Source of the DNA: Nereocystis luetkeana
Lineage: Eukaryota; Sar; Phaeophyceae; Laminariales; Laminariaceae
Length of the DNA stretch: 64,000 bases
Assembly: GCA_031213475.1 (NCBI GenBank)
Contig: JARUPZ010000005.1
Span: 7,808,988-7,872,987, forward strand
Direction of reading: 5' to 3'
The position numbers were made by a program, and so were the translations under genes. Below the pieces are notes generated by a model, which was not told the origin of the DNA, made no database searches, and worked only from the letters and a program-made list of their open reading frames with translations. Of this stretch, positions 2,572 to 25,937 are shown piece after piece (the stretch's first letter is position 1; each line of letters begins with the position of its first letter).

Positions 2572-2575
2572 CATG
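2572..2575. repeat. Target-site duplication CATG (partner at 13677-13680)
   Basis: CATG precedes the 5' LTR and is repeated directly after the 3' LTR, which fixes the element boundaries. Confidence 0.8.
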
Positions 2576-3114
2576 TGTTACAGCGCCGAGAGACTGTTAC
2601 AGCGCGACGGCGCTACGAGGAGGATAATACGACGTGAGACGACTGTGTTGATCAGTGTCACGCGTCGGGTCTATTTGTATGAGCAAAGGGTAAGCTTTCA
2701 CAAGCTCCTGAGGCCATATCTTATAGTGGCAGGAAGGATCCCTGGCATGGGAACGCCTTCGGTTGCGTGTACAAAACCAGTAAAGCGGCATCGTAACCAC
2801 CCGGTGTTTACTCAACGCCACCCAGAGACCAAAGAAAGAGCAAAGCCAAGTGATCTGTGATACCCGTCCTGTTAGCCCCACGCCCCGTGGGCACTGCTGT
2901 GCCCGTCGTGCTCGTTATCGTTCTTGCCCCTTCGTTGATCGTCGGCATCAGCGTCATTGCAACTACTGCCCTGCTACGATTCACTCGTCAAAAGGAGCAA
3001 CTCTACTCATCCTGCGAGACACGTCACGAACAACAATACGAAAGGTTAGCCAACCTGAGACATGTGTAAGGAGCTTGTGCTTCTAGGGTCTGAGGGTTGA
3101 AGCCTCCCGTATCA
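2576..3114 (+). repeat. 5' LTR of gypsy element
   Basis: 539 bp, TG...CA ends. Same length as the 3' copy with five substitutions seen by eye. The U3/R/U5 limits cannot be placed from the sequence alone. Confidence 0.95.
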
Positions 3115-3132
3115 TGGTGAACCCAGAAAGAT
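3115..3132 (+). other. Primer-binding site candidate
   Basis: TGGTGAACCCAGAAAGAT follows the 5' LTR directly. The TGG would pair with a tRNA 3' CCA end. I could not identify the tRNA. Confidence 0.6.
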
Positions 3133-4180
3133 TGATGTGCAGTGCAAGGAGAGTGGAGTGTTGGAGTGTTGACAAGAAGGGGGACCCTTTGCGCGTACTC
3201 GTACGATGCACAAAAATAATACGAAATTGGAAATCACATTTCACCTACTACTGCTGTACTCGTACTCGAAGCTGACGTTTTTCATTTCTGTTTTCATTTA
3301 CAAAACATTCTCGTGATCACGTCACATGGTACCTTTGAGGGCACATCATACCACGTACCTGGTACCTCATATCACGAATGTTTGCTGGGTAGTCTATATT
3401 TCGCGTAGCTGTACGTAGGTATGTGCAGGCACTTCCTACGCTCGTACATACATGTATTTTGTGCTTGTAAGGGCACTTGTTTGCTCGACTTTCGGCCGTC
3501 GAACAATATGCGTGCTCACCAGAACGAGCAGGCGTTGTTGCATACCAGGCATGCATTCATATGCATGATATGCATGCTCGACGCTGTGGTATTCACGTAT
3601 GCTGCCAACGGTGCTCCGCCAGCTGTTTGCGTTTGTTTTTGAAATGATGTTTGGTCTCCGCATGCAGGCATACGTTTTGCTCGTGCCCCGTCTGTCCGTG
3701 CCCGTGCCCGTTCGTTTGCTCGTTGTTCATCGTGCACGCACGTTTGTTCGTGTCTAATAAATGCCTGCATGTCTCAGACCAAATGTTTTTTTTTAACCAA
3801 ATATAAACAAAAAGTGTTGAATACAAGCCAGAGGTGATGTGCATAATACCGCCCGCATACGCTCGTTTACCGATAGTAGAGTTGGATAAATCCTCTACTT
3901 CACAACTGACGCGTGTTTGTTTGTTTGTTTGTTTGTTCTTCCCTAATATAGAGCTCAGGCATGACTCTCGAGAATTTTAAAACACTACTCATACGATTAG
4001 TATCCGCATACTTAACATACAGATAACCCCGTGCGAACCCGAGTGCTGTGATTGCTCATGACTGTACGTTAAGGTTGGGTTATACATTCTTCCTTTCGGG
4101 ATCCCATCCTTCCCGTGCTGTCATACAATACCCCGAGCGGAAAAGCAGGGCCGGAACACCTACAACTGTGAAGCAAGGAC
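3133..4180 (+). other. Non-coding leader of gypsy element
   Basis: About 1 kb between PBS and the purine repeat. It is A/T-richer than the ORFs and includes a short (GTTT)n run near 3913-3936 and several ATGCAT palindromes near 3545-3575. No supported ORF. Confidence 0.6.
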
Positions 4181-4400
4181 AGGAAAGGAAAGGAAAAGAA
4201 AGGAAAAGAAAGGAAAGGAAAGGAAAGGAAAGGAAAGGAAAGGAAAGGAAAGGAAAGGAAAGGAAAGGAAAGGAAAGGAAAGGAAAGGAAAGGAAAGGAA
4301 AGGAAAGGAAAGGAAAGGAAAGGAAAGGAAAGGAAAGGAAAGGAAAGAAAAGGAAAGGAAAGGAAAGGAAAGGAAAGGAAAGGAAAGGAAAGGAAAGGAA
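4181..4400 (+). repeat. (AGGAA)n pentanucleotide tract, about 220 bp
   Basis: Almost pure AGGAA repeats with a few A-for-G changes, ending 17 bp before the gag ATG. One strand is purely purine. Long open frames through it on both strands are repeat artefacts. Confidence 0.97.
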
Positions 4401-4417
4401 GACAAAAGAGGAGGAAT

Positions 4418-6961
4418 ATGGGCGACCGCGAGGCCGCCAACGGCAACGATCAGGGCTCCAGCAACGGAGGCAGTGCACGCGGCGGCGACCCACCTCGCGG
4501 CAGGCACAACCGGGGTCGCGGCCGCGACCAGGACCACCATGGCAGCCGCAGCGGCCGCGGTTCGCCTAGCGGAGACGCCCACAGCGCCTACCGCGACCAC
4601 CCCAAAGGCGTAGGAGGTGGCGCGATGGGTGACCGCGACAAACCCAGCAGTCATGGTCATGGGCGCAATCAGGACCGCGATGGTAGCCGCCCTAGTAACT
4701 CCAGCCGCAGCCGTGACCGCAAGAAACGCCGCCGCCACAGCAGCCACGGTCGCGACAGCAAAAACCGCAGCCGTCGCCACCGCGGCCACGGTCGCGACAG
4801 CGAGGAACACAGCCGTCGCCACCGCGGCCGCAACCGCGACAGCAAGGAACGCCACCGCCGCCGCAGTCACAGCCGCGGCAGGGATGAACGCCGCCTCCGC
4901 CGTAGCGAGGATAGCAGCCACAGCCGTGCACCCCGCGGGCGCCGCCAACGCAGCAAAAAGGGGACATCGGAACAGCAACAGCCCCCAGCGCCGGAGCGTC
5001 GGAGGGAACAGCCGCCGCTGCCACCGCGACAGCTTCAGCAGCCGCCGCTGCCGCCGCCGCCGCCGCCGCAGCAGCAGCAGCAGCAAGGGGCGTCAACGCA
5101 GCCACTGCTCTCGACACCGGCGATAGGCCACCCGGTAGGCTACGCACCGCAACCATGGAGCCTGGGTAACATGGGGGGGTATTCTCTCGCACATTACCCG
5201 CTCGCACAGGCGCCCCAGGCGCAAATGTTACACCAGCCGCAGTCCTCGTCAACGGTATACAGTGGGCAACATGGAGCAGCACTAACGCATCACCTCCGTC
5301 CCACTCCCTGGATGTGGCGGCCGAGCCCGAACGCGCAGACGCCTCAACCAGCCGGGGTGGGACCGCCCCAGACCGCCACTCACCCAGGAGTGGGGGAACC
5401 CATCAGCCCGAAAGAGGCCCAAAGGGTTGTGAACAAGATCGTAAGCGACATGGGAATGTCCAAGGGCCAAGACGGTTTTGTGGGGCTGGTTGTAGACCCC
5501 CAAGGCGAGCTCTCATGGAGGAACGACCCAGTGCTGTTCGTCGACAAGTTTACGAAGACCACGGCACAGGTCGAAGGGACGGCGTGGGCCATGCCCCAAG
5601 ACCAGTTCTCCACAGATGGGATCAACCCTGCTCGGCCCCGAGCAGATAGGCTGACGCCGTGGAGAGTCGAGTGCTTTGGGAAGCTCAGCGCAGACACCCT
5701 GGCAACACGCGACCTGATGCGCCCGCACACTACGGTAGAGGTGCCTCTCGTCCAAGGAGGTTTATGCCACATACCTTTCGAGGAGGTTACGGCGAAGGAG
5801 TGGTGCAGGATGCTGGTAGCTGAGGTAGCACACTCAGGGCAGGCACAAAGGAGGGCTGCGGTAGCGCTCGACGAAATAAGGCTCTTGCAAGGGGAGTCGT
5901 GGATGGCCGCAGCTCGCAGGCTGGTGCTGCATGTGCGCGCGGCAACCGCAGACGAGACGAGGCCGCATGCGTCAGAAGAAGCGTATTTCTGGAGGTACGT
6001 TTCGGGGAGGCAAGTGGCGGAGTTATGCGAGCGAGCCGTCAACCTCTTCTTCGCCAGTGCCTCCGACCGCAATGGGATGGAATCTCTCTTCGTTCAAGTG
6101 GGAACTGACGTAAAACGGCACCTAACTCCCGTGCACGTGGAACCCGGCAAGCCTCTGAGTGACGGCATGGTGCGACGCGGGGTGGTGTCTCACGGGATAT
6201 TCTACGGCATTGTCGAGGCCCTGCTCACCCGGTGCAGTCGCTACCCCCTGGCCACGACACCAGCGGGACGGAGCCGGGGCAGCGTAGCGGTGTTATCGCA
6301 GAGCCAGAGACTACCCCTGGGACCGGGCGGGGCAAGCGACTATCCGCCGAGGGAGGAGCGGAGGGGAGGGGGTAAACCGCCCACCCGGGAACCGCCCAGG
6401 GCGTGGAGGAAGAAGGTAGAGGCGCTCCGGGACAGCGCGTGTGCGGCGCTGGCTGCGGTGGACGGGGGACTATTCTCCGAGGAAGAGGAGGAGGAGGAGG
6501 ACGAAACGCTTGGCAACCGTCCCCACGTCGCCGCCTTCGCCAACGTCCGCGCGTCCACCCCAGGGGCACACGGAACCCCGTTTGTAAGTCGTAAAGGCGG
6601 CCGCGACGACCGCCCGTACAACAGGAGCCGAGAAAAAGCGGACAACAGGAAGGAAGGGGAGGAGCTGCCGAGCCCAGAGGCCGAAGACAGGGTGATTATA
6701 GACGCCCTGCGTCAGCGAAGGGTTTGCTTCTTCCATGCGAGGGGCTCCGAATGCCCTCACAAGGATGCCGCCACCGGCAGAGAATGCCGCTTCTCGCACG
6801 ACGAGGACGTCGTGCCCTACGGGCTCTACCCGCGCAAGAACACCCCGACTCAAGGCCCGCAGCTAGAGCCAGGTATGCTCACGGCGCTCGAGATGTTGAG
6901 CGCGTACACGGGCGATGAGGGCGGGGCCAGCGCGGGTGCCCCCCAGGTCTCGCGGGCCTGA
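4418..6961 (+). CDS. gag: Gag-like polyprotein with RS-rich N-terminus and CCCH finger
   Basis: 847 aa, starting at an ATG just after the purine repeat. Residues 1-190 are low complexity, rich in Arg/Ser/Asp/His, like SR/RD splicing-factor tails. Residues 190-330 are Pro/Gln-rich. About 330-640 form a more ordinary, partly helical segment that would be the capsid region by position. An acidic Glu run lies near 690-700. Near the C-terminus Cys770, Cys779, Cys790 and His794 form C-x8-C-x10-C-x3-H, a CCCH-type finger where most Gags carry a CCHC knuckle. It ends at UGA 6959-6961, and the same frame stays open into pol. Gag identity rests on position and architecture because I see no classic capsid signature. 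It should bind and package element RNA. Confidence 0.8.
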   Translation: MGDREAANGNDQGSSNGGSARGGDPPRGRHNRGRGRDQDHHGSRSGRGSPSGDAHSAYRDHPKGVGGGAMGDRDKPSSHGHGRNQDRDGSRPSNSSRSRDRKKRRRHSSHGRDSKNRSRRHRGHGRDSEEHSRRHRGRNRDSKERHRRRSHSRGRDERRLRRSEDSSHSRAPRGRRQRSKKGTSEQQQPPAPERRREQPPLPPRQLQQPPLPPPPPPQQQQQQGASTQPLLSTPAIGHPVGYAPQPWSLGNMGGYSLAHYPLAQAPQAQMLHQPQSSSTVYSGQHGAALTHHLRPTPWMWRPSPNAQTPQPAGVGPPQTATHPGVGEPISPKEAQRVVNKIVSDMGMSKGQDGFVGLVVDPQGELSWRNDPVLFVDKFTKTTAQVEGTAWAMPQDQFSTDGINPARPRADRLTPWRVECFGKLSADTLATRDLMRPHTTVEVPLVQGGLCHIPFEEVTAKEWCRMLVAEVAHSGQAQRRAAVALDEIRLLQGESWMAAARRLVLHVRAATADETRPHASEEAYFWRYVSGRQVAELCERAVNLFFASASDRNGMESLFVQVGTDVKRHLTPVHVEPGKPLSDGMVRRGVVSHGIFYGIVEALLTRCSRYPLATTPAGRSRGSVAVLSQSQRLPLGPGGASDYPPREERRGGGKPPTREPPRAWRKKVEALRDSACAALAAVDGGLFSEEEEEEEDETLGNRPHVAAFANVRASTPGAHGTPFVSRKGGRDDRPYNRSREKADNRKEGEELPSPEAEDRVIIDALRQRRVCFFHARGSECPHKDAATGRECRFSHDEDVVPYGLYPRKNTPTQGPQLEPGMLTALEMLSAYTGDEGGASAGAPQVSRA

Positions 6962-6991
6962 AAGTGCGCCCCAGGGGGTTCTCTCCTGGGG
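6959..6991 (+). promoter_or_regulatory. Gag UGA stop followed by hairpin: candidate readthrough signal
   Basis: The gag stop is UGA followed by A. The codons after it (6962 onward) stay open in the same frame through the protease. Seven bases after the stop CCCCAGG (6969-6975) pairs perfectly with CCTGGGG (6985-6991) around a 9-base loop. The loop side CTCTCC could also pair with GGAGAG near 7030, giving a pseudoknot. Stop, short spacer and structure resemble gammaretroviral readthrough signals. Alternatively, the stop is an inactivating mutation. Confidence 0.6.
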
Positions 6992-9900
6992 AACAGCAGC
7001 CAACTCGAGCAGCGAGCGCAGGAGCGGGGGGGAGAGGAGGAGAGAGGCAGTATCACCAAGGGAGGACATGTGGACATTAGTGGAGAGGGGGCCGCAGATG
7101 ACGTATGTATCGTCCCCGCACAGCAGCACGACGAGCAGCACGGCGACCACGCGTTAGCCTCCCTAGGCGTCGATGACCCAAACGACGCGGCGGCCATAGG
7201 TGTGGGGTCTAAACAGGTGTGGGTGCGTGCGTTCGTGTGGCATCACACCAAAACTAGTTGCCGCATTCCGGTGGAGGTGTTGGTCGACACAGGGGCAGGA
7301 GGTGGGAATTACTCCTCTGCGGCATTCGTACGTTCCGTCGAGCGCAGCGGAAGAGGGGGGAAGTCGGTGATGAGCTCGAGGGGACAGGGGTGGTTGAGGG
7401 CAGCCAACCCCACGAGCAGTGCCGTCCCTCCCATGAAAATTTCGGGGTCGTGTGAGCTCCCACTGGTGTTTGGCCCAGAGGACAGGGTGCGCAAAGTACT
7501 GGTGCGGGTAGTCGAGGGTCTCCCATACGGCCTAATCATAGGGGCGGCGTTTTTGAGAAAGAATGGAAGCATTATCAGCTTTGCGGCCGGCGGGGGTTTC
7601 AAACCGGCACCAGAGTCGCCGTGGGTGCCCTTTATCTCGTCAACGAGCGTCTCCAGCTCGAAGACGGCGGAGCGGAAGGCGGTGAGCTGGCAGGCATCAG
7701 TCCGACCGAACGAAGAAGTAGGGCCGGACACGATCGGGAGCAGGGCAACGTGGGAGCAGTTCTGCGCGGTCAAGCCGCCCCATGGAGAGGAAGAACCAGC
7801 GGAAATAGCCGAGCTGCCAACTCAACCCAGCGAGGGCTCGGCGGCCTGGGAGGACGATGGAACCCTGCAGTGGGAGTTGCGACCAGCCCGACAAACGGTG
7901 GTGCCGGGTTTCGTCAGCGTGCAGGTGGACGCTTATGCCAAGGGAGCCCAACCCCAGGACAGGCAGCTGGTTGTGGTAGAACCGAAGGCCTCGTATGACA
8001 TGGAGACGGGAGCAGAGCTGGGAATTGCGCGCGGGGCGCAGTGGTGGTACCCCGGAACGCCGCTACAGTGCAAGGTGGTGAACCGTTCGAAAGTGCCCTT
8101 GACCCTGATCCAGGGCGGAGTCGTTGCTCGGATTTACGCCGTCAACACGAGCGACAAAGAACGCATGCGGATGCTGTTAGACCCCGTCGTGCCGGCGGAC
8201 GGCACAACGGGGAGGAAGGAGCAGCCAGCACTGGTGACTCAGGAGGAAGGTGGGGGGGCGGGTGCCGACGTGGTGGACTTGACCCTGGCCAACATTGCTC
8301 AGACGAGCGCACCCGTGAAAGCAGCCCTTATTCGAGTGCTGGAGAAGTACCGCCACGTGTTCCCGGCAAATCCGAAGATTGTCCCGGCGTGCAACCGCGC
8401 TAAGCTGCAGTTGCCTCTGATCGACAGCAGCTGCAAGCCCCACGCGGCAAAACAGCGACGGTATTCGCCGGAGGAAACGGCCATGATCCAGAGCGAAGTG
8501 GAGAAGCAAAAGAAAGCAGGGACCATCCGCCGGTCGCAGTCAGCGTGGGCGGCAAACTGCGTGGTGGTACCGAAGAAGGATGGCACGGTGAGGGTCTGTC
8601 AGGACTTTAGAGGGCTGAACGTTTGTCTGGAGTCCAACAGCGGGTTGCTGGGGGACATCGCAAGTATCTTCGACAACATGAAGGGCGCCACGTGCTTCAC
8701 GTCCATCGATCTAGCGTCGGGTTTCACCCAGCTGGAAATTGCCGAGGAGGACAAGCACAAGACAGCTTTTCGCGACGCCCACGGTGAGCTGTGGGAGTTC
8801 AACCGGTGTGGCTTCGGGCTGAAGACCCTCCCTGCGGGCTTCGCCGCCTATGTAGGGGAGACGCTGGGTCCTCAAAAAGGAAATGGCGTTCAGAACTGGC
8901 TCGACGACATCATTATCCACACCAGGCACGTCGACGGGCACGTAGATCTTGTGGAAAAGGTACTGGAGCGGCTCCACCAGTTTGGGTTGTCGGTGAACTT
9001 GCCCAAGTCGATTTGGTGTGCCCCGCAGCAGGAGTTCGTCGGCATGGTGGTCAGCAGACTGGGAGTACAGCCATCACAAGCGAAGATCGAGGCGGTGGCT
9101 AAACTCTCTCGCGCCAAAACGGTGGAGGAGGTCAGGGCGCTTTTGGGCATGGGCAGCTATCTCAGGAAGTTCGTGCGCGGATACAGCTCGCTCGTAGCGC
9201 CTATTTCGGACCTGCTCAGGGACAAGCGGTTCGCATCAAAAAGGGCAAGGAGGCTCCCAGTGCCGTGGGGTGAGGAGCAGGACAAGGCTCTGAGGGCGCT
9301 GATCGAGTTCCTAACATCGCCACTGATCCTGGTGTTGCCCAACTGGGAGGTCATATTTCGGCTGCACACGGACGCCAGCGAGCTGGGCGCTGGGGCCGCG
9401 CTTACGCAGGACACCAGAGGAGCAGAGCGCGTTATCGGGTACGCGAGCCACAGATGGTCAAGGACGGACGCCAAGCGGTCCGCAACTGAGCGAGAGGTTA
9501 TGGCGGTGTTGTGGGCCATCCCGCATCACAGGCCGTACTTGTGGGGGAGGAAATTCGTTCTGATCACCGACTGCTCCGCGCTCTTGTGGCTGTTCAAGAG
9601 TCAGGCCCTCTCGGCGAAGCTCCACCGGTGGGCGCTCAGGTTGATGGAATACGACATGGAACTCCAGTGGCGACCGGGGGCAAACCACCAGTTGCCGGAC
9701 GCCCTATCGAGGCTGCCACTGGGCGACGCGCCGGGCACGGACATCGACGACTCATTCCCAGACGATTCTTCCACCAGGTCCACATACCGAGGCCCCAAGG
9801 GACCGGTGCTCGACGGCGTGTTGCTCAGCGAACTGGGGGCGGACGAGGTGGACAAGCCAACGGGGAAAAATGCGGCGGTTGCGGCCAGCGTGATTTTTAC

Positions 9901-11680
9901 CCTAGACAGCGTCGCCGACGCAGACGCTGAGAGCGCCGCTATAATGTCTGCAACAGAAGAGCGCCCAGTGGCCGTGGTGCTCTGCTGTGGGGGGGGAGGT
10001 GGCCTCATGGCGGCGAAGGGGCTGGTTGCAGTCAAGGGGGCAACCGACCACGACTGGAGGGCACTCGAGTGCGTCAGGGCAAACGGATTGGATGAAGGAG
10101 TTCGACTGGTGAGAGCGGAACCTGGGGGGGAGGATTGCAAGAGGCTCCTAAGCGACTTGAGCCCGAGCGTAGTGATGGGAGATGCGTCCAGAAAGCCAGC
10201 TCAGCAGGGGCCCGGTGGAGCAGCAACCTTGGCAAAGAGTATGGTGAAGGCCTTCATTGACTCCACAGCCAGGGTGCTTTTGCTGGAATGTCACCCGAAC
10301 CTACTCCGTTCGACGGAATGGGCGCAGGCGGTGCTGCCTGCGTTGAGGGAAGCAGCGTGCACGGTGGGGACAGTCGAAGTCGCGGCGAGCAGCGTGGGGG
10401 TTCCGTCGGGGAAGAGGAAAGCGTTCGCTGTCGGCGTAAGGAGTGGGAAGCCAGGAGGGGAAGGTGAGACATTAAGGGAGTGGAAGCGGGACCTCGAAGG
10501 GCGCGACTCGGAGTGCACTTCTCTAGGGGGATTCTTGGGGAGGAGTGGGACCTATTTCCTCAAGCGGGGGACGGAAGAGAAAGGGATCTTTTCTTTTCAT
10601 GATCCCATTCTTTCCATCACCCGGGCGCACGTCATGGGCGAGAAACCCCTAGACGGATCGTACAGACCACACCCCTTGGACGCAGGCGAGATTGGCCAAG
10701 CAAGCGAGCTGAGCCTCGCAGAGTACAAGAGACTTACCCCCGGACGATCGGACTACAGGATTCCCCCAACTGTCAGCAGGGGAGCAGCGGCCACGATACT
10801 GGCAGACTTTGTCGTACCACTCATGGTAAGAGAGGTCCTGTTGGGGTTGTGGGCAAAAGGGCTGTTGGCGGAAACAACCAGCGAGAGGCAACTCCACGGA
10901 ACAGGATCGCTTGAAGGTTTGCAGGCGCTCTTTGAGGAAGATCTAGCTCAAGTCACGCCGGCGGTTACGAGGTCAAAAGCGGGCGCGGGGAGGGGCAGGG
11001 CAACAGAGAAGCCAGCGCAGGGGCCAACGCCGCTCTCTACGCAGCCGGTGCCGTCGCTACCGCCACCTCCACCATCGGTGCAACCCACAGGAGGCGCGCC
11101 GCCGCAGTCAACATCCCAACCTCAGCTGAGGCGGCAAGCACCGAGCGCGGAGTACCTGGGGCCGCTTCCTTCCATGATAGATCAGGTAGCGGAAGTGCTG
11201 CGTGATGCGTCCCGACTGGCACGGCGGCAGAGGGAGGATGCGCGACTGGGCCCGATTGGGGGAAGACTGCGAAGGGGACGGCGACAGACAGACACCAGAA
11301 GGGACGGTGAACTATGTTCTCGACGACAACGACCTACTTTGGAGCACGCCTCAGGGGGAGGCCCCGAAGTTGGCTATCCCTCGAGCGCTAGTGCCGGGCG
11401 TGCTGGCACTCGTGCACAGTACCTACCACCCTGGCGTGGCGCGGACTCTCCTGCTGGTCAAGGGCAAGTACAGATGGCCGACCGTAGCCCAGGATGTCAG
11501 GGAGTACGTGCTATCGTGTGGGTGCAGAAGGAGGAAAAGAGCGCGGAGCCAACGAGTGGCCATGATGCCTGCCCGGTTACTGTGGCCGTGGGAAGTGCTC
11601 GAGATGGACCTGCAGGATATGAAGCAGGTCTCCAGCGCGGGGATCAGGTACCTGCTGGTAGTGGTGGATCGGGCCAGTAG
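6962..11680 (+). CDS. pol: Gypsy Pol: protease, RT, RNase H, methyltransferase-like domain
   Basis: Open in the same frame as gag. No ATG is needed if it is made by readthrough; an independent start would have to use GTG at 7070. Protease: DTGAGG with the Asp at 7286-7288, and LIIGAAFL near 7535. RT: about 8480-9215, with SIDLASGF as motif A and WLDD at 8897-8908 in place of the usual YxDD. RNase H: about 9340-9725, with HTDAS, the Glu of ATEREV, and TDCSALL, ending in the usual PDALSRL. A cytosine-methyltransferase-like domain follows (9960-10850), then a Pro-rich linker. Past about 11.21-11.29 kb this frame loses sense and integrase continues in another frame, so the last ~400 bases of this ORF are not real protein. 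Confidence 0.93.
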   Translation, partial: KCAPGGSLLGNSSQLEQRAQERGGEEERGSITKGGHVDISGEGAADDVCIVPAQQHDEQHGDHALASLGVDDPNDAAAIGVGSKQVWVRAFVWHHTKTSCRIPVEVLVDTGAGGGNYSSAAFVRSVERSGRGGKSVMSSRGQGWLRAANPTSSAVPPMKISGSCELPLVFGPEDRVRKVLVRVVEGLPYGLIIGAAFLRKNGSIISFAAGGGFKPAPESPWVPFISSTSVSSSKTAERKAVSWQASVRPNEEVGPDTIGSRATWEQFCAVKPPHGEEEPAEIAELPTQPSEGSAAWEDDGTLQWELRPARQTVVPGFVSVQVDAYAKGAQPQDRQLVVVEPKASYDMETGAELGIARGAQWWYPGTPLQCKVVNRSKVPLTLIQGGVVARIYAVNTSDKERMRMLLDPVVPADGTTGRKEQPALVTQEEGGGAGADVVDLTLANIAQTSAPVKAALIRVLEKYRHVFPANPKIVPACNRAKLQLPLIDSSCKPHAAKQRRYSPEETAMIQSEVEKQKKAGTIRRSQSAWAANCVVVPKKDGTVRVCQDFRGLNVCLESNSGLLGDIASIFDNMKGATCFTSIDLASGFTQLEIAEEDKHKTAFRDAHGELWEFNRCGFGLKTLPAGFAAYVGETLGPQKGNGVQNWLDDIIIHTRHVDGHVDLVEKVLERLHQFGLSVNLPKSIWCAPQQEFVGMVVSRLGVQPSQAKIEAVAKLSRAKTVEEVRALLGMGSYLRKFVRGYSSLVAPISDLLRDKRFASKRARRLPVPWGEEQDKALRALIEFLTSPLILVLPNWEVIFRLHTDASELGAGAALTQDTRGAERVIGYASHRWSRTDAKRSATEREVMAVLWAIPHHRPYLWGRKFVLITDCSALLWLFKSQALSAKLHRWALRLMEYDMELQWRPGANHQLPDALSRLPLGDAPGTDIDDSFPDDSSTRSTYRGPKGPVLDGVLLSELGADEVDKPTGKNAAVAASVIFTLDSVADADAESAAIMSATEERPVAVVLCCGGGGGLMAAKGLVAVKGATDHDWRALECVRANGLDEGVRLVRAEPGGEDCKRLLSDLSPSVVMGDASRKPAQQGPGGAATLAKSMVKAFIDSTARVLLLECHPNLLRSTEWAQAVLPALREAACTVGTVEVAASSVGVPSGKRKAFAVGVRSGKPGGEGETLREWKRDLEGRDSECTSLGGFLGRSGTYFLKRGTEEKGIFSFHDPILSITRAHVMGEKPLDGSYRPHPLDAGEIGQASELSLAEYKRLTPGRSDYRIPPTVSRGAAATILADFVVPLMVREVLLGLWAKGLLAETTSERQLHGTGSLEGLQALFEEDLAQVTPAVTRSKAGAGRGRATEKPAQGPTPLSTQPVPSLPPPPPSVQPTGGAPPQSTSQPQLRRQAPSAEYLGPLPSMIDQVAEVLRDASRLARRQREDARLGPIGGRLRRGRRQTDTRRDGELCSRRQRPTLEHASGGGPEVGYPSSASAGRAGTRAQYLPPWRGADSPAGQGQVQMADRSPGCQGVRAIVWVQKEEKSAEPTSGHDACPVTVAVGSARDGPAGYEAGLQRGDQVPAGSGGSGQ
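9960..10850 (+). other. C5 cytosine DNA-methyltransferase-like domain inside Pol
   Basis: Lies between RNase H and integrase. Order and spacing follow the C5-MTase family. VVLCCGGGGGLMAAKG (about 9974) aligns with the cofactor-binding motif I. PSVVMGDASRKPAQQG (about 10162) aligns with the motif IV GGPPCQ loop. VLLLECHPNLL (about 10276) aligns with the ENV motif VI. SVGVPSGKRKAFAVGVR (about 10390) aligns with motif VIII GVPQxRxRxF. A tail with ILADFVVPLM (about 10797) resembles motif X. The catalytic Pro-Cys is replaced (DAS where PPC is expected) and ENV is ECH, so methyl transfer seems unlikely. It may be a binding domain or a decaying enzyme. Not a standard part of Ty3/gypsy Pol. Confidence 0.72.
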
Positions 11681-13016
11681 GTTTGTGTTCGCGTACCCGT
11701 TAGAGTCCAAGGATTCCGTGGGCGTGGCGAGGAAACTCCTGGAGCTGGTGCTTACGTTCGGCGTGCCGCTGTCGATTGGAAGCGATGCCGGGGGGGAGTT
11801 CACAGCCAAGGTAGTCGCCCACCTGTGTCAGTGGCTGCGGGTACAGCTGGATCACGGTCCGGCCGACCACCCCCGCAGTCAGGGAGCCGTGGAAAGGATG
11901 GGCGGGTGGCTCCAGGAGGTATTGGCGGAGCTCTGCAAATCTTGGCCGGCGAGGTAGGACGAGTACGTCAGAGCGGCCTGCTGGATTCAAAGGACCACGC
12001 CGGACCCGTGCCTCCCTTCGGGTGGAACACCCTTCAGGATCCTGTTTGGCCGCGACGCGCGCACAAACTTGGACGCTCTTACTCCGGCGCTGGACGGCGA
12101 TGGCTTTCGCACTGGCCTGGACAATTTCGTGGCGGAGAAGCAACAGATGTTCCTGGAACTGCGGGGAATCCTGAAGAAGCGGCAGGAGGACAAGAATAAG
12201 CGACGCGTACGCCACAACGCAGCCATTAGGCGGCACTCCTCGGGTGAGCGGGCGCGAGTGGGAGACCTGATGCTGGTAAAGGAGGCCGACAGTAAGATGG
12301 CGCGGGAGGGCACTCACGCCAAACTAGCGCACGAGCATTGGACGGGGCCGTGGCAGATGACAGCCATCGAACAGCCAGGCATCAGTTACCAGGCGACGAT
12401 GAGCGGCCGCCGGATCAGGAGGAGGACTGTTTCGGCAGCCAACATCAAGACATTTCACTTGCGGCCGGAACGTCTACGCCACGCTTTCGAGGACGAATTC
12501 ACGCATCTGGCTTGGGGTGCGGACTTGGGGTTGGCGGACACCTCGACGGTAGCGGTGCCACTTTACACTCTGACAGACCGGCAAGCCGTTGAGAGCACGG
12601 GAAGCGGATGGGAGTGGCAATACCGAGGACTATACCAGAGTGGGACAGAATCGGAGTGGCTACCGGAAGAGGAGGTGCGGGACAGCTTCACCCCGCTGCA
12701 ACTCGACGTCTTCCATGCCCTATGGGAAGCGTACAAGGGAAGGGACTGCCGCCCTCGGCCGCCGGAACCACCGGCGAAGGGGGAACGTGACCAGGCGCTG
12801 CGAACGAGAGCGCTGCAGGATTTTCCGGCAGGCACACAAGTCAGGCGGTCGTTCGTGGGATCTGATGGGGTGAGCCAGGTGGCGGTGGGGCGAGTTTACG
12901 ACTTCCAGACGCCGTACTGGCGAGTACGGTACCCGGACGGAGACTGGGAGGAGCTGAGTCGCAGCCAAGTGACCCGCGGAGCCGAGAAGCACCAGAATGC
13001 CGCCGGCCGGGGATGA
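11202..13016 (+). pseudogene. Gypsy integrase with chromodomain-like and Tudor-like tail (frameshifted, one nonsense codon)
   Basis: This frame is +1 relative to the RT part. It holds HSTYH and CGC (a modified HHCC finger, about 11413-11525) and the catalytic Asp of EMDLQ (about 11605). It also holds the Asp of SDAGGEF (about 11784) and the Glu of QGAVERM (about 11890). TAG at 11955-11957 interrupts it; the same frame resumes at once with DEYVRAA and TPFRILFGRD, typical of an integrase C-terminus, so the stop is probably Trp TGG changed to TAG. Downstream, WEWQYRGLYQSG...EWLPEEEV (about 12612) resembles a chromodomain, and YWRVRYPDGDWEELS (about 12916) resembles Tudor-like ends of other algal elements. 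It ends at TGA 13014. Confidence 0.88.
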
Positions 13017-13125
13017 CCTCCGCCAGCAACAGGCGGAGAGCGGTAGCGGTGGATCGGTTAGGGTGGGGGGGGGAGACGCAGTCGGCTGCTGGAGTGACCG
13101 TTTTGCTCCGACGCAAGATTGCGCC

Positions 13126-13137
13126 GGGCAGGGGGGG
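13126..13137 (+). other. Polypurine tract
   Basis: GGGCAGGGGGGG directly before the 3' LTR, where plus-strand priming occurs in LTR elements. Confidence 0.75.
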
Positions 13138-13676
13138 TGTTACAGCGCCGAGAGACTGTTACAGCGCGACGGCGCTACGAGGAGGATAATACGACGTGAG
13201 ACGACTGTGTTGATCAGTGTCACGCGTCCGGTCTATTTGTATGAGCAAAGGGTAAGCTTTCACAAGCTCCTGAGGCCATATCTTATAGGGGCAGGAAGGA
13301 TCCCTGGCATGGGAACGCCTTCGGTTGCGTGTACAAAACCAGTAAAGCGGTATCGTAACCACCCGGTGTTTACTCAACGCCACCCAGAGACCAAAGAAAG
13401 AGCAAAGCCAAGTGATCTGTGATACCCGTCCTGTTAGCCCCACGCCCCGTGGGCAATGCTGTGCCCGTCGTGCTCGTTATCGTTCTTGCCCCTTCGTTGA
13501 TCGTCGGCATCAGCGTCATTGCAACTACTGCCCTGCTGCGATTCACTCGTCAAAAGGAGCAACTCTACTCATCCTGCGAGACACGTCACGAACAACAATA
13601 CGAAAGGTTAGCCAACCTGAGACATGTGTAAGGAGCTTGTGCTTCTAGGGTCTGAGGGTTGAAGCCTCCCGTATCA
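13138..13676 (+). repeat. 3' LTR of gypsy element
   Basis: 539 bp, same ends and length as the 5' LTR. CATG follows at 13677-13680. Confidence 0.95.
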
Positions 13677-13764
13677 CATGTGGCACGGTTTATGCTTTAA
13701 GCGTTCTTTTTTACCGGACTTTTTCATGGACAGAAAACCGCTCGAGGCGGGCGTTTTTACTTGG

Positions 13765-25853: not shown

Positions 25854-25937
25854 TGGCGTCGTCGGCAGGACACGAACCTGCGCGTGAAATCACAATGGGT
25901 TTCGAATCCATTCTCTTAACCACTCGGGCACGACGAT
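25854..25937 (-). other. Full-length antisense tRNA-Ser(CGA) copy, including CCA, at the PBS
   Basis: On the minus strand this reads as an 81-nt class II tRNA plus CCA. The acceptor forms six of seven pairs. The anticodon loop is TTCGAAA (anticodon CGA, serine), the variable arm GTGA-TT-TCAC, and the T stem GCAGG/CCTGC is perfect. CCA is present as TGG at 25854-25856, two bases after the LTR, exactly the PBS position. Eukaryotic tRNA genes do not encode CCA. Base 58 of the T loop, almost always A, is T here. This suggests a reverse-transcribed copy of the primer tRNA rather than a tRNA gene. Confidence 0.8.

Follow-up and report, generated by a model that had tools for sequence, protein, structure and literature searches.

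The window analysed here is a stretch of 64,000 nucleotides from the brown alga Nereocystis luetkeana (assembly GCA_031213475.1, contig JARUPZ010000005.1, positions 7,808,988 to 7,872,987). A Ty3/gypsy-type retrotransposon spans window positions 2576-13676, as judged from its long terminal repeats (LTRs) and from the order reverse transcriptase (RT), RNase H and integrase in Pol, and this Pol harbors an extra domain that appears to be related to the C5 cytosine methyltransferases. All features lie on the + strand unless otherwise stated. The pol open reading frame (ORF; 6962..11680, 1572 aa) encodes RT (RVT_1, 8567..9049, Pfam E 8.1e-15) and RNase H (RT_RNaseH_2 / RT_RNaseH, 9266..9652, Pfam E 7e-24 and 2.9e-28) and exits the integrase frame through a frameshift near 11.3 kb. 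The integrase zinc-binding domain (Integrase_H2C2, 11376..11537, Pfam E 1.1e-10) and the integrase core that follows it (rve, 11592..11873, Pfam E 1.7e-11) are read in another frame than the pol ORF.

The extra domain and its copies

The C5-methyltransferase-like domain (MTL), delimited by sibling copies and profile comparisons, occupies 9956..10861 (ORF residues 999-1300), in frame between RNase H and the integrase zinc domain. An earlier sequence-only reading had proposed an extra domain of about 300 residues at 9960..10850. The domain is indeed there, and comparison with a sister copy that lacks it gives a slightly larger cassette, 9902..10909 (336 aa). The five motif strings quoted in that reading all occur in frame in the pol ORF and in the order stated. 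The putative motif I place is VLCCGGGGG (9977..10003), assigned by order and position. The motif IV place is VVMGDASRK (10169..10195), with a Ser codon (10187-10189) where the catalytic Cys would stand and Ala at the Pro place, so the Pro-Cys pair is replaced in the window copy, as had been noted. The motif VI place, LLLECHPN (10277..10300), retains Glu and has Cys for Asn, and the motif VIII place, SVGVPSGKRKAFAVG (10391..10435), carries K-x-K, which is R-x-R in lineage B; both are placed by profile alignment. The motif X place, TVSRGAAATILADF (10769..10810), is assigned by position.

A search of the alga's own genome (465 Mb, 1987 contigs) with MTL returned 112 stretches at E<=10, and 104 still qualify at E<=0.001. 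Lineage A, to which the window copy belongs, comprises 21 full-length matches that are 97-100% identical and represent 16 distinct DNA sequences, though some of the matches lie on small contigs and might be duplicates made in assembly. A' is made up of several decayed relatives, 51-76% identical, and lineage B of about twenty copies, 42-47% identical; A and B share ~45% identity over 298 aligned residues. Five A copies have an open frame of 2018 residues running through MTL, and the lineage B copy L070 shows the same Ty3/gypsy hallmarks, with the order RT, RNase H and integrase. Lineage C, with P0031 and P0047-P0156, consists of very many pieces, found among ENA proteins from long contigs of another assembly, in which motif IV is commonly GNTSRR; its counts are drawn from the best 120 of 174 matches and include only those >50% identical to P0031. 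Viral contigs searched with MTL gave no match.

The lineage B copy L077 (1501-2663) carries MTL residues 15-80 twice in tandem. P0017 is a protein cluster with 133 member sequences, a member count that need not mean expression, and its end resembles translated sequencing adapter. It was rejected as transcript evidence on account of this adapter-like tail.

Descent of the domain

Family matches of the sibling copies and profile comparison support the descent of the extra Pol domain, which would make it a C5 METHYLTRANSFERASE relative. The family scans were made with 14 aligned stop-free MTL copies, six of lineage A and eight of lineage B, two of the latter being shorter at the start. At E<=1, the C5-methyltransferase family PF00145 matches 8 of the 14 (best 5.6e-5), TIGR00675 also 8 of 14 (best 7.6e-4; L034 scanned singly reaches 18.7 bits, far under the cut-off of 100.65), and PHROG_363, annotated as DNA methyltransferase, all 14 (best 2.1e-5; window copy E 0.026). 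Used as a query against the whole genome, PF00145 finds one B copy, L003, with E 7.6e-4 and 26.4 bits, above the curated family cut-off of 22 bits. When proteins were scanned singly with PF00145, five of nine matched: L033 (22.4 bits), L034 (22.3) and L065 (22.2) lie above the cut-off, none by more than 0.4 bits, and P0002 (21.8) and L062 (15.8) stay below it.

The profile comparison with hhalign used as its target 94 prokaryotic and phage C5 methyltransferases (80 + 13 loci and E. coli Dcm), which supersede an earlier narrow Dcm-type profile that had given E 0.0011. MTL aligns to the 94-sequence profile with E 7.5e-5 and a score of 40.0, the top of 40 column shuffles being 25.0, and with enlarged alignments E is 5.2e-5 and 5.8e-5. 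Widening the domain alignment brings no gain in score (E 1.8e-4 and 2.4e-4; scores 37.9 and 37.0 vs shuffle maxima of 21.6 and 19.7), and the global mode yields no useful alignment. The signal is concentrated in the piece from position 91 on, which holds motifs VI-VIII: its scores of 40.0 and 40.7 are reached by none of 60 shuffles (maxima 22.1 and 21.8; P ~2e-5). Residues 1-118, including motif VI, are marginal (18.0 and 18.5 vs shuffle maxima of 16.9 and 17.7), and the C-terminal third with motif X is not significant, since 7 of 60 and 4 of 60 shuffles score as high. The alignment starts at motif IV, with VVMGDASRK set against GFPCQPF, if the window copy leads, and at motif VI if L034 leads.

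Several results weigh against this descent. The window MTL segment alone has no Pfam or NCBIfam match even at E<=10. A phmmer search of the PDB sequences with it found nothing, and a PDB profile search returned no methyltransferase and one weak unrelated match. P0003, P0031, P0028 and P0009, scanned singly with PF00145, have no match, so the placement of lineages C and D rests on their similarity to A and B. The C5 likeness is statistically supported over ~60-90 residues only, those of motifs VI-VIII, and the putative motifs I, IV and X are backed by order and position only. The AlphaFold models are very poor (pLDDT 38.9 from the single sequence and 39.7 from a 27-row alignment), and Foldseek with both of them gave nothing at E<=0.001, a result that such models make uninformative.

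It could be argued from the missing statistics for motifs I, IV and X and from the poor models that MTL is another Rossmann-like or an unrelated domain, whose resemblance in motifs VI-VIII arose by convergence or chance. This is hardly likely, as the scans of the siblings return C5-methyltransferase families in Pfam and NCBIfam and DNA methyltransferase families in PHROGs, and beyond methyltransferase families these three collections give only matches at E 0.15. In addition, the PF00145 match is in register from the N-terminus, domain residues 105-188 of L033 corresponding to profile positions 104-190. The C5 likeness proposed in the sequence-only reading thus holds for the sibling matches and the profile comparison, with statistics that cover motifs VI-VIII; the PF00145 search that it had recommended fails on the window segment and succeeds on the siblings.

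Loss of the canonical catalytic residues

The Pro-Cys nucleophile of motif IV that PF00145 enzymes carry is absent as a pair from the rows of lineages A, B and C. The motif IV place reads GDAS in lineage A, that of the window, GDAC in B and GNTS in C. Pro occurs at its place in 0 of 42 A, 0 of 44 B and 0 of 42 C rows, the residue being mostly Ala in A (34/42) and B (41/44) and Thr in C (33/42). The Cys place is Ser in 37 of 42 A-side rows and in 35 of 42 C rows; in B it is Cys in 38 of 44, with four Arg, one Ser and one Trp. Cys stands in two A-side rows, that of the broken copy L080 and that of L082, which is 32% identical, and both alignments are unsure. These counts include some frame-broken pieces; one C row is gapped, L027 is out of frame at motif IV, and P0031 is counted twice, once in the A-side table and once in the C table. 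The idea that only the window copy lost Pro-Cys was accordingly rejected, and the siblings retaining the pair that the sequence-only reading had suggested looking for did not turn up. Since Pro is missing from all rows counted in the three lineages, canonical catalysis was probably lost before A, B and C split, as an old and family-wide event.

At motif VI, Glu is mostly retained: by 41 of 43 rows in A, 37 of 41 in B and 34 of 40 in C. The adjoining Asn place is mostly Cys in A and B (37/41 in B) or Ser in C and is Asn in no row, so that no Glu-Asn-Val is formed. Motif VIII is R-x-R in B, with either Arg present in 40/42 rows, and K-x-K in most A rows (38/44 and 39/44), and its Gln is absent from the reference copies.

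Lineage B therefore has Cys, Glu and R-x-R in catalytic places, which leaves room for activity and counts against a domain without catalysis. It has to be considered that B, and perhaps the ancestor, is an active, unconventional C5 methyltransferase without the motif IV Pro, which would methylate its own cDNA, as has been proposed for known retrotransposons bearing a DNA methyltransferase (DNMT), with A and C as dead side branches. The frequencies of the three residues in B speak for it, as does the fact that the singly scanned copies above the PF00145 cut-off all belong to this lineage. Against it stand the lack of Pro in every B row and the Cys that mostly replaces the motif VI Asn. Moreover, the B Cys column lies at the 23rd conservation percentile of the lineage, the R-x-R columns being near the 80th, and this Cys may be secondary, because Ser predominates at that place in A and C. 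An active lineage B is thus an unlikely explanation.

Selection on the domain

MTL, like the surrounding Pol, is under purifying selection. The ratio of nonsynonymous to synonymous substitution rates (dN/dS), which the sequence-only reading had advised testing on the domain, was taken against old broken relatives. For the three best covered, L030, L032 and L073, it is 0.27, 0.27 and 0.38 in MTL and 0.24, 0.30 and 0.23 in RNase H. Three further decayed relatives give 0.45, 0.47 and 0.45 for MTL and 0.47 (30 codons), 0.26 and 0.43 for RNase H. The six comparisons thus range from 0.27 to 0.47 in MTL, within the RNase H range of 0.23 to 0.47, and decay of the broken relatives after their insertion raises the ratio.

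The deeper comparison of A with B is saturated at synonymous sites (proportion of synonymous differences, pS, 0.76), with a proportion of nonsynonymous differences (pN) of 0.34-0.35 and 45-47% identity in MTL. Identity elsewhere is 60-66% in RNase H, 53% in RT and 26-32% in the linker after MTL. Among five B copies, pN/pS in MTL is 0.53. For the young A copies the value is 0.92 at a pS of 0.009, which is uninformative, as changes seen in one copy dominate this set. Two results speak against a constraint proper to the domain: the flanking linkers have dN/dS of 0.16 to 0.67, like that of MTL, and the linker before MTL (44-46% between A and B) is conserved as MTL is. The constraint would therefore be that of the Pol ORF and not specific to MTL.

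These data bear on the suggestion that MTL is functionless baggage of an old capture, now decaying. Catalytic residues are gone, many copies are broken, subfamilies without MTL exist, and the domain is no more constrained than its linkers; the ratio of about 0.9 in young A copies points the same way, except that it comes from a very young set dominated by single-copy changes. The low dN/dS against six old relatives, whose own decay inflates it, speaks against this suggestion, as do the ~45% identity kept between A and B despite saturated synonymous sites and the five A copies that remain open for 2018 residues. Decay, which the sequence-only reading had offered as one reason for the loss of Pro-Cys, is hence not supported and was rejected, and the baggage explanation is improbable.

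Presence and absence of the cassette

The extent of the cassette was obtained by blastp against the sister copy L249, of subfamily A0, to which residues 761-980 of the window Pol align at 83% before the alignment picks up again at 1317. Because L249 has 41 residues where the window copy has 336, MTL would be an accessory cassette of Pol. A tblastn search of L249 with MTL gave a best E of 1.7, and the more distant L250 gave one 37-residue stretch at E 0.018.

How widely the cassette is carried was estimated from an integrase search, in which the best 150 of 1640 candidates were scored and then paired with MTL matches; 107 integrase matches with an identity of 60% or more were counted and 43 rows at 52-59% were left out. 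Among these best-scoring candidates, an MTL match lies upstream of the integrase in 24 of 24 at 97-100% identity, 2 of 18 at 84-90%, 4 of 19 at 66-83% and 23 of 46 at 60-65%, counts that are approximate, as degraded copies can escape an MTL match. The integrase of the L249 subfamily is 87% identical to that of the window. In this 87% group, four matches belong to open frames that run for 1754 residues and have no MTL match, three of the four being equal in score, and for this reason elements without the cassette appear to have multiplied.

In a tree of RT-RNase H (17 sequences, rooted on L251; L066 and L067 omitted as too short), A0 is sister to A+A' (support 99), and A+A' is supported at 100. 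The MTL-bearing lineage B falls outside A0, A and A', and the MTL-less L250 and L251 lie further out. By count, one gain followed by a loss in A0 explains this equally well as two gains at the same site. The sequences would favour the former, since the position and the linker are the same.

Other features of the element and the window

The 5' LTR (2576..3114) starts with TGTTACAG and is 99.07% identical to the 3' LTR (13138..13676), with 5 differences in 540 aligned bases, the first aligned base being a chance match. A target-site duplication CATG, read from the sequence, flanks the element at 2572..2575 and 13677-13680. A putative primer-binding site, TGGTGAACCCAG (3115..3126), directly follows the 5' LTR, and a G-rich polypurine stretch lies just before the 3' LTR.

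The gag ORF, taken from stop to stop (4172..6961), ends in TGA and had no match in a Pfam search. As gag and pol share a frame with this one TGA between them (4172-6961 and 6962-11680), stop-codon readthrough could operate. The open pol frame of 2018 aa in five sibling copies suggests that the stop at the junction is retained. At its start the gag ORF contains a G/A-rich tandem repeat (4120-4464) with a spacing of 10-15 bases that encodes KGKER-type units, and near the end of Gag a Cys/His cluster (6720-6815) resembles a CCCH and not a CCHC zinc knuckle.

The RT active-site place (8900-8925) reads WLDD instead of the usual YxDD; WLDD is also found in L249 and L251, and YLDD in L250. According to the ORF list, an in-frame TAG (11955..11957) lies within the integrase of the window copy. 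The ENA protein P0001, which shares 93% identity with the window copy over the region used in the search, runs in a single frame across both the frameshift and the TAG sites. At the C-terminus, a weak Tudor-like match (PTM_DIR17_Tudor, PF21743; 12831..12971) has Pfam E 2.6e-4 and 21.1 bits, below the cut-off of 27.2. The same family matches P0001 at E 0.012 and L065 at 0.0041, also under the cut-off, and L070 not at all. A tRNA gene at 25857-25937 on the - strand is the sole Rfam match in the window.

Host methyltransferases and related systems

Elsewhere in the genome, PF00145 matches only a pair of stretches on contig C2, separated by 16 kb, that contain SPPCQPF, FTKGYG and GNSVNVEVV, signatures typical of DNMT2. 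Beyond these and MTL, the whole-genome PF00145 search, which introns limit, found no C5 methyltransferase. In Ectocarpus, only a DNMT2 homologue has been found and 5-methylcytosine was undetected (PMC3145265; PMC12477816).

Retrotransposons with captured, working methyltransferases are known. KnitGypsy-Dnmt3 of Klebsormidium nitens is likewise a Gypsy element whose Pol contains a C5-methyltransferase domain under purifying selection, but its domain is a Dnmt3 with conserved key residues, whereas MTL lacks Pro-Cys in all rows counted (PMC5890265). The same paper describes SymbioDIRS-Dnmt3 and SymbioLINE-Dnmt, in which a DNMT is likewise added to a retroelement Pol; these are DIRS and LINE elements, not LTR elements, and their key DNMT positions are conserved (PMC5890265). 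De novo methylation of CGs by retrotransposon DNMTs is also reported there (PMC5890265). The catalytic residues that are conserved in the captured-Dnmt3 retrotransposons are not conserved in MTL.

Among brown algae, the Ectocarpus Tudor-domain Gypsy lineage Gypsy-10_Ec32 has its Tudor after the integrase, where the window element has a sub-cut-off match only; the accessible portion of the report describes no methyltransferase domain for it, and the two are likened here by description only (PMC12477816). An Ectocarpus DNA transposon with a methyltransferase gene of N4-cytosine or N6-adenine type is reported in the same paper (PMC12477816). A library of open-licence papers, searched by title or abstract opening, gave no description of such a domain in such elements. 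What would be new here is a captured methyltransferase that is catalytically stripped, yet kept under selection, and that some sister subfamilies have and others lack.

Proposed role of the domain

The current model proposes that a Ty3/gypsy lineage carries a C5-cytosine-methyltransferase-derived domain as an accessory cassette, and that MTL is probably a pseudoenzyme, a non-methylating Pol module between RNase H and integrase. DNMT3L, a vertebrate host regulator, has a methyltransferase fold without the catalytic motif and is kept for binding and regulation. The methyltransferase fold of MTL may have been retained to work in a similar way; the likeness is one of principle only, as DNMT3L is not part of a retroelement. 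By this analogy, the most likely job of MTL would be to bind nucleic acid, or a cofactor or partner, beside the integrase, and such binding would bias where or how the cDNA integrates, jointly with the Tudor-like tail. The sequence-only reading had suggested a binding or decoy role. MTL would help the element without being indispensable to it, in keeping with the sister subfamilies that lack it.

A broader history can be proposed only tentatively: a captured cytosine methyltransferase may have become a Pol module that does not methylate, or, as far as lineage B is concerned, a proline-less unconventional enzyme, in a host in which only a DNMT2-like C5 gene was found. If so, a fold derived from DNA methylation would serve transposition, for example by flipping or gripping DNA beside the integrase, and not host silencing.

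Profile surveys with strict cut-offs can overlook such domains, as illustrated by the window copy, which lacks any Pfam match. The elements with MTL and their sisters without it, whose integrases are 87% identical, offer a natural with/without comparison, and this comparison asks what a methyltransferase fold gives a retrotransposon besides methylation.

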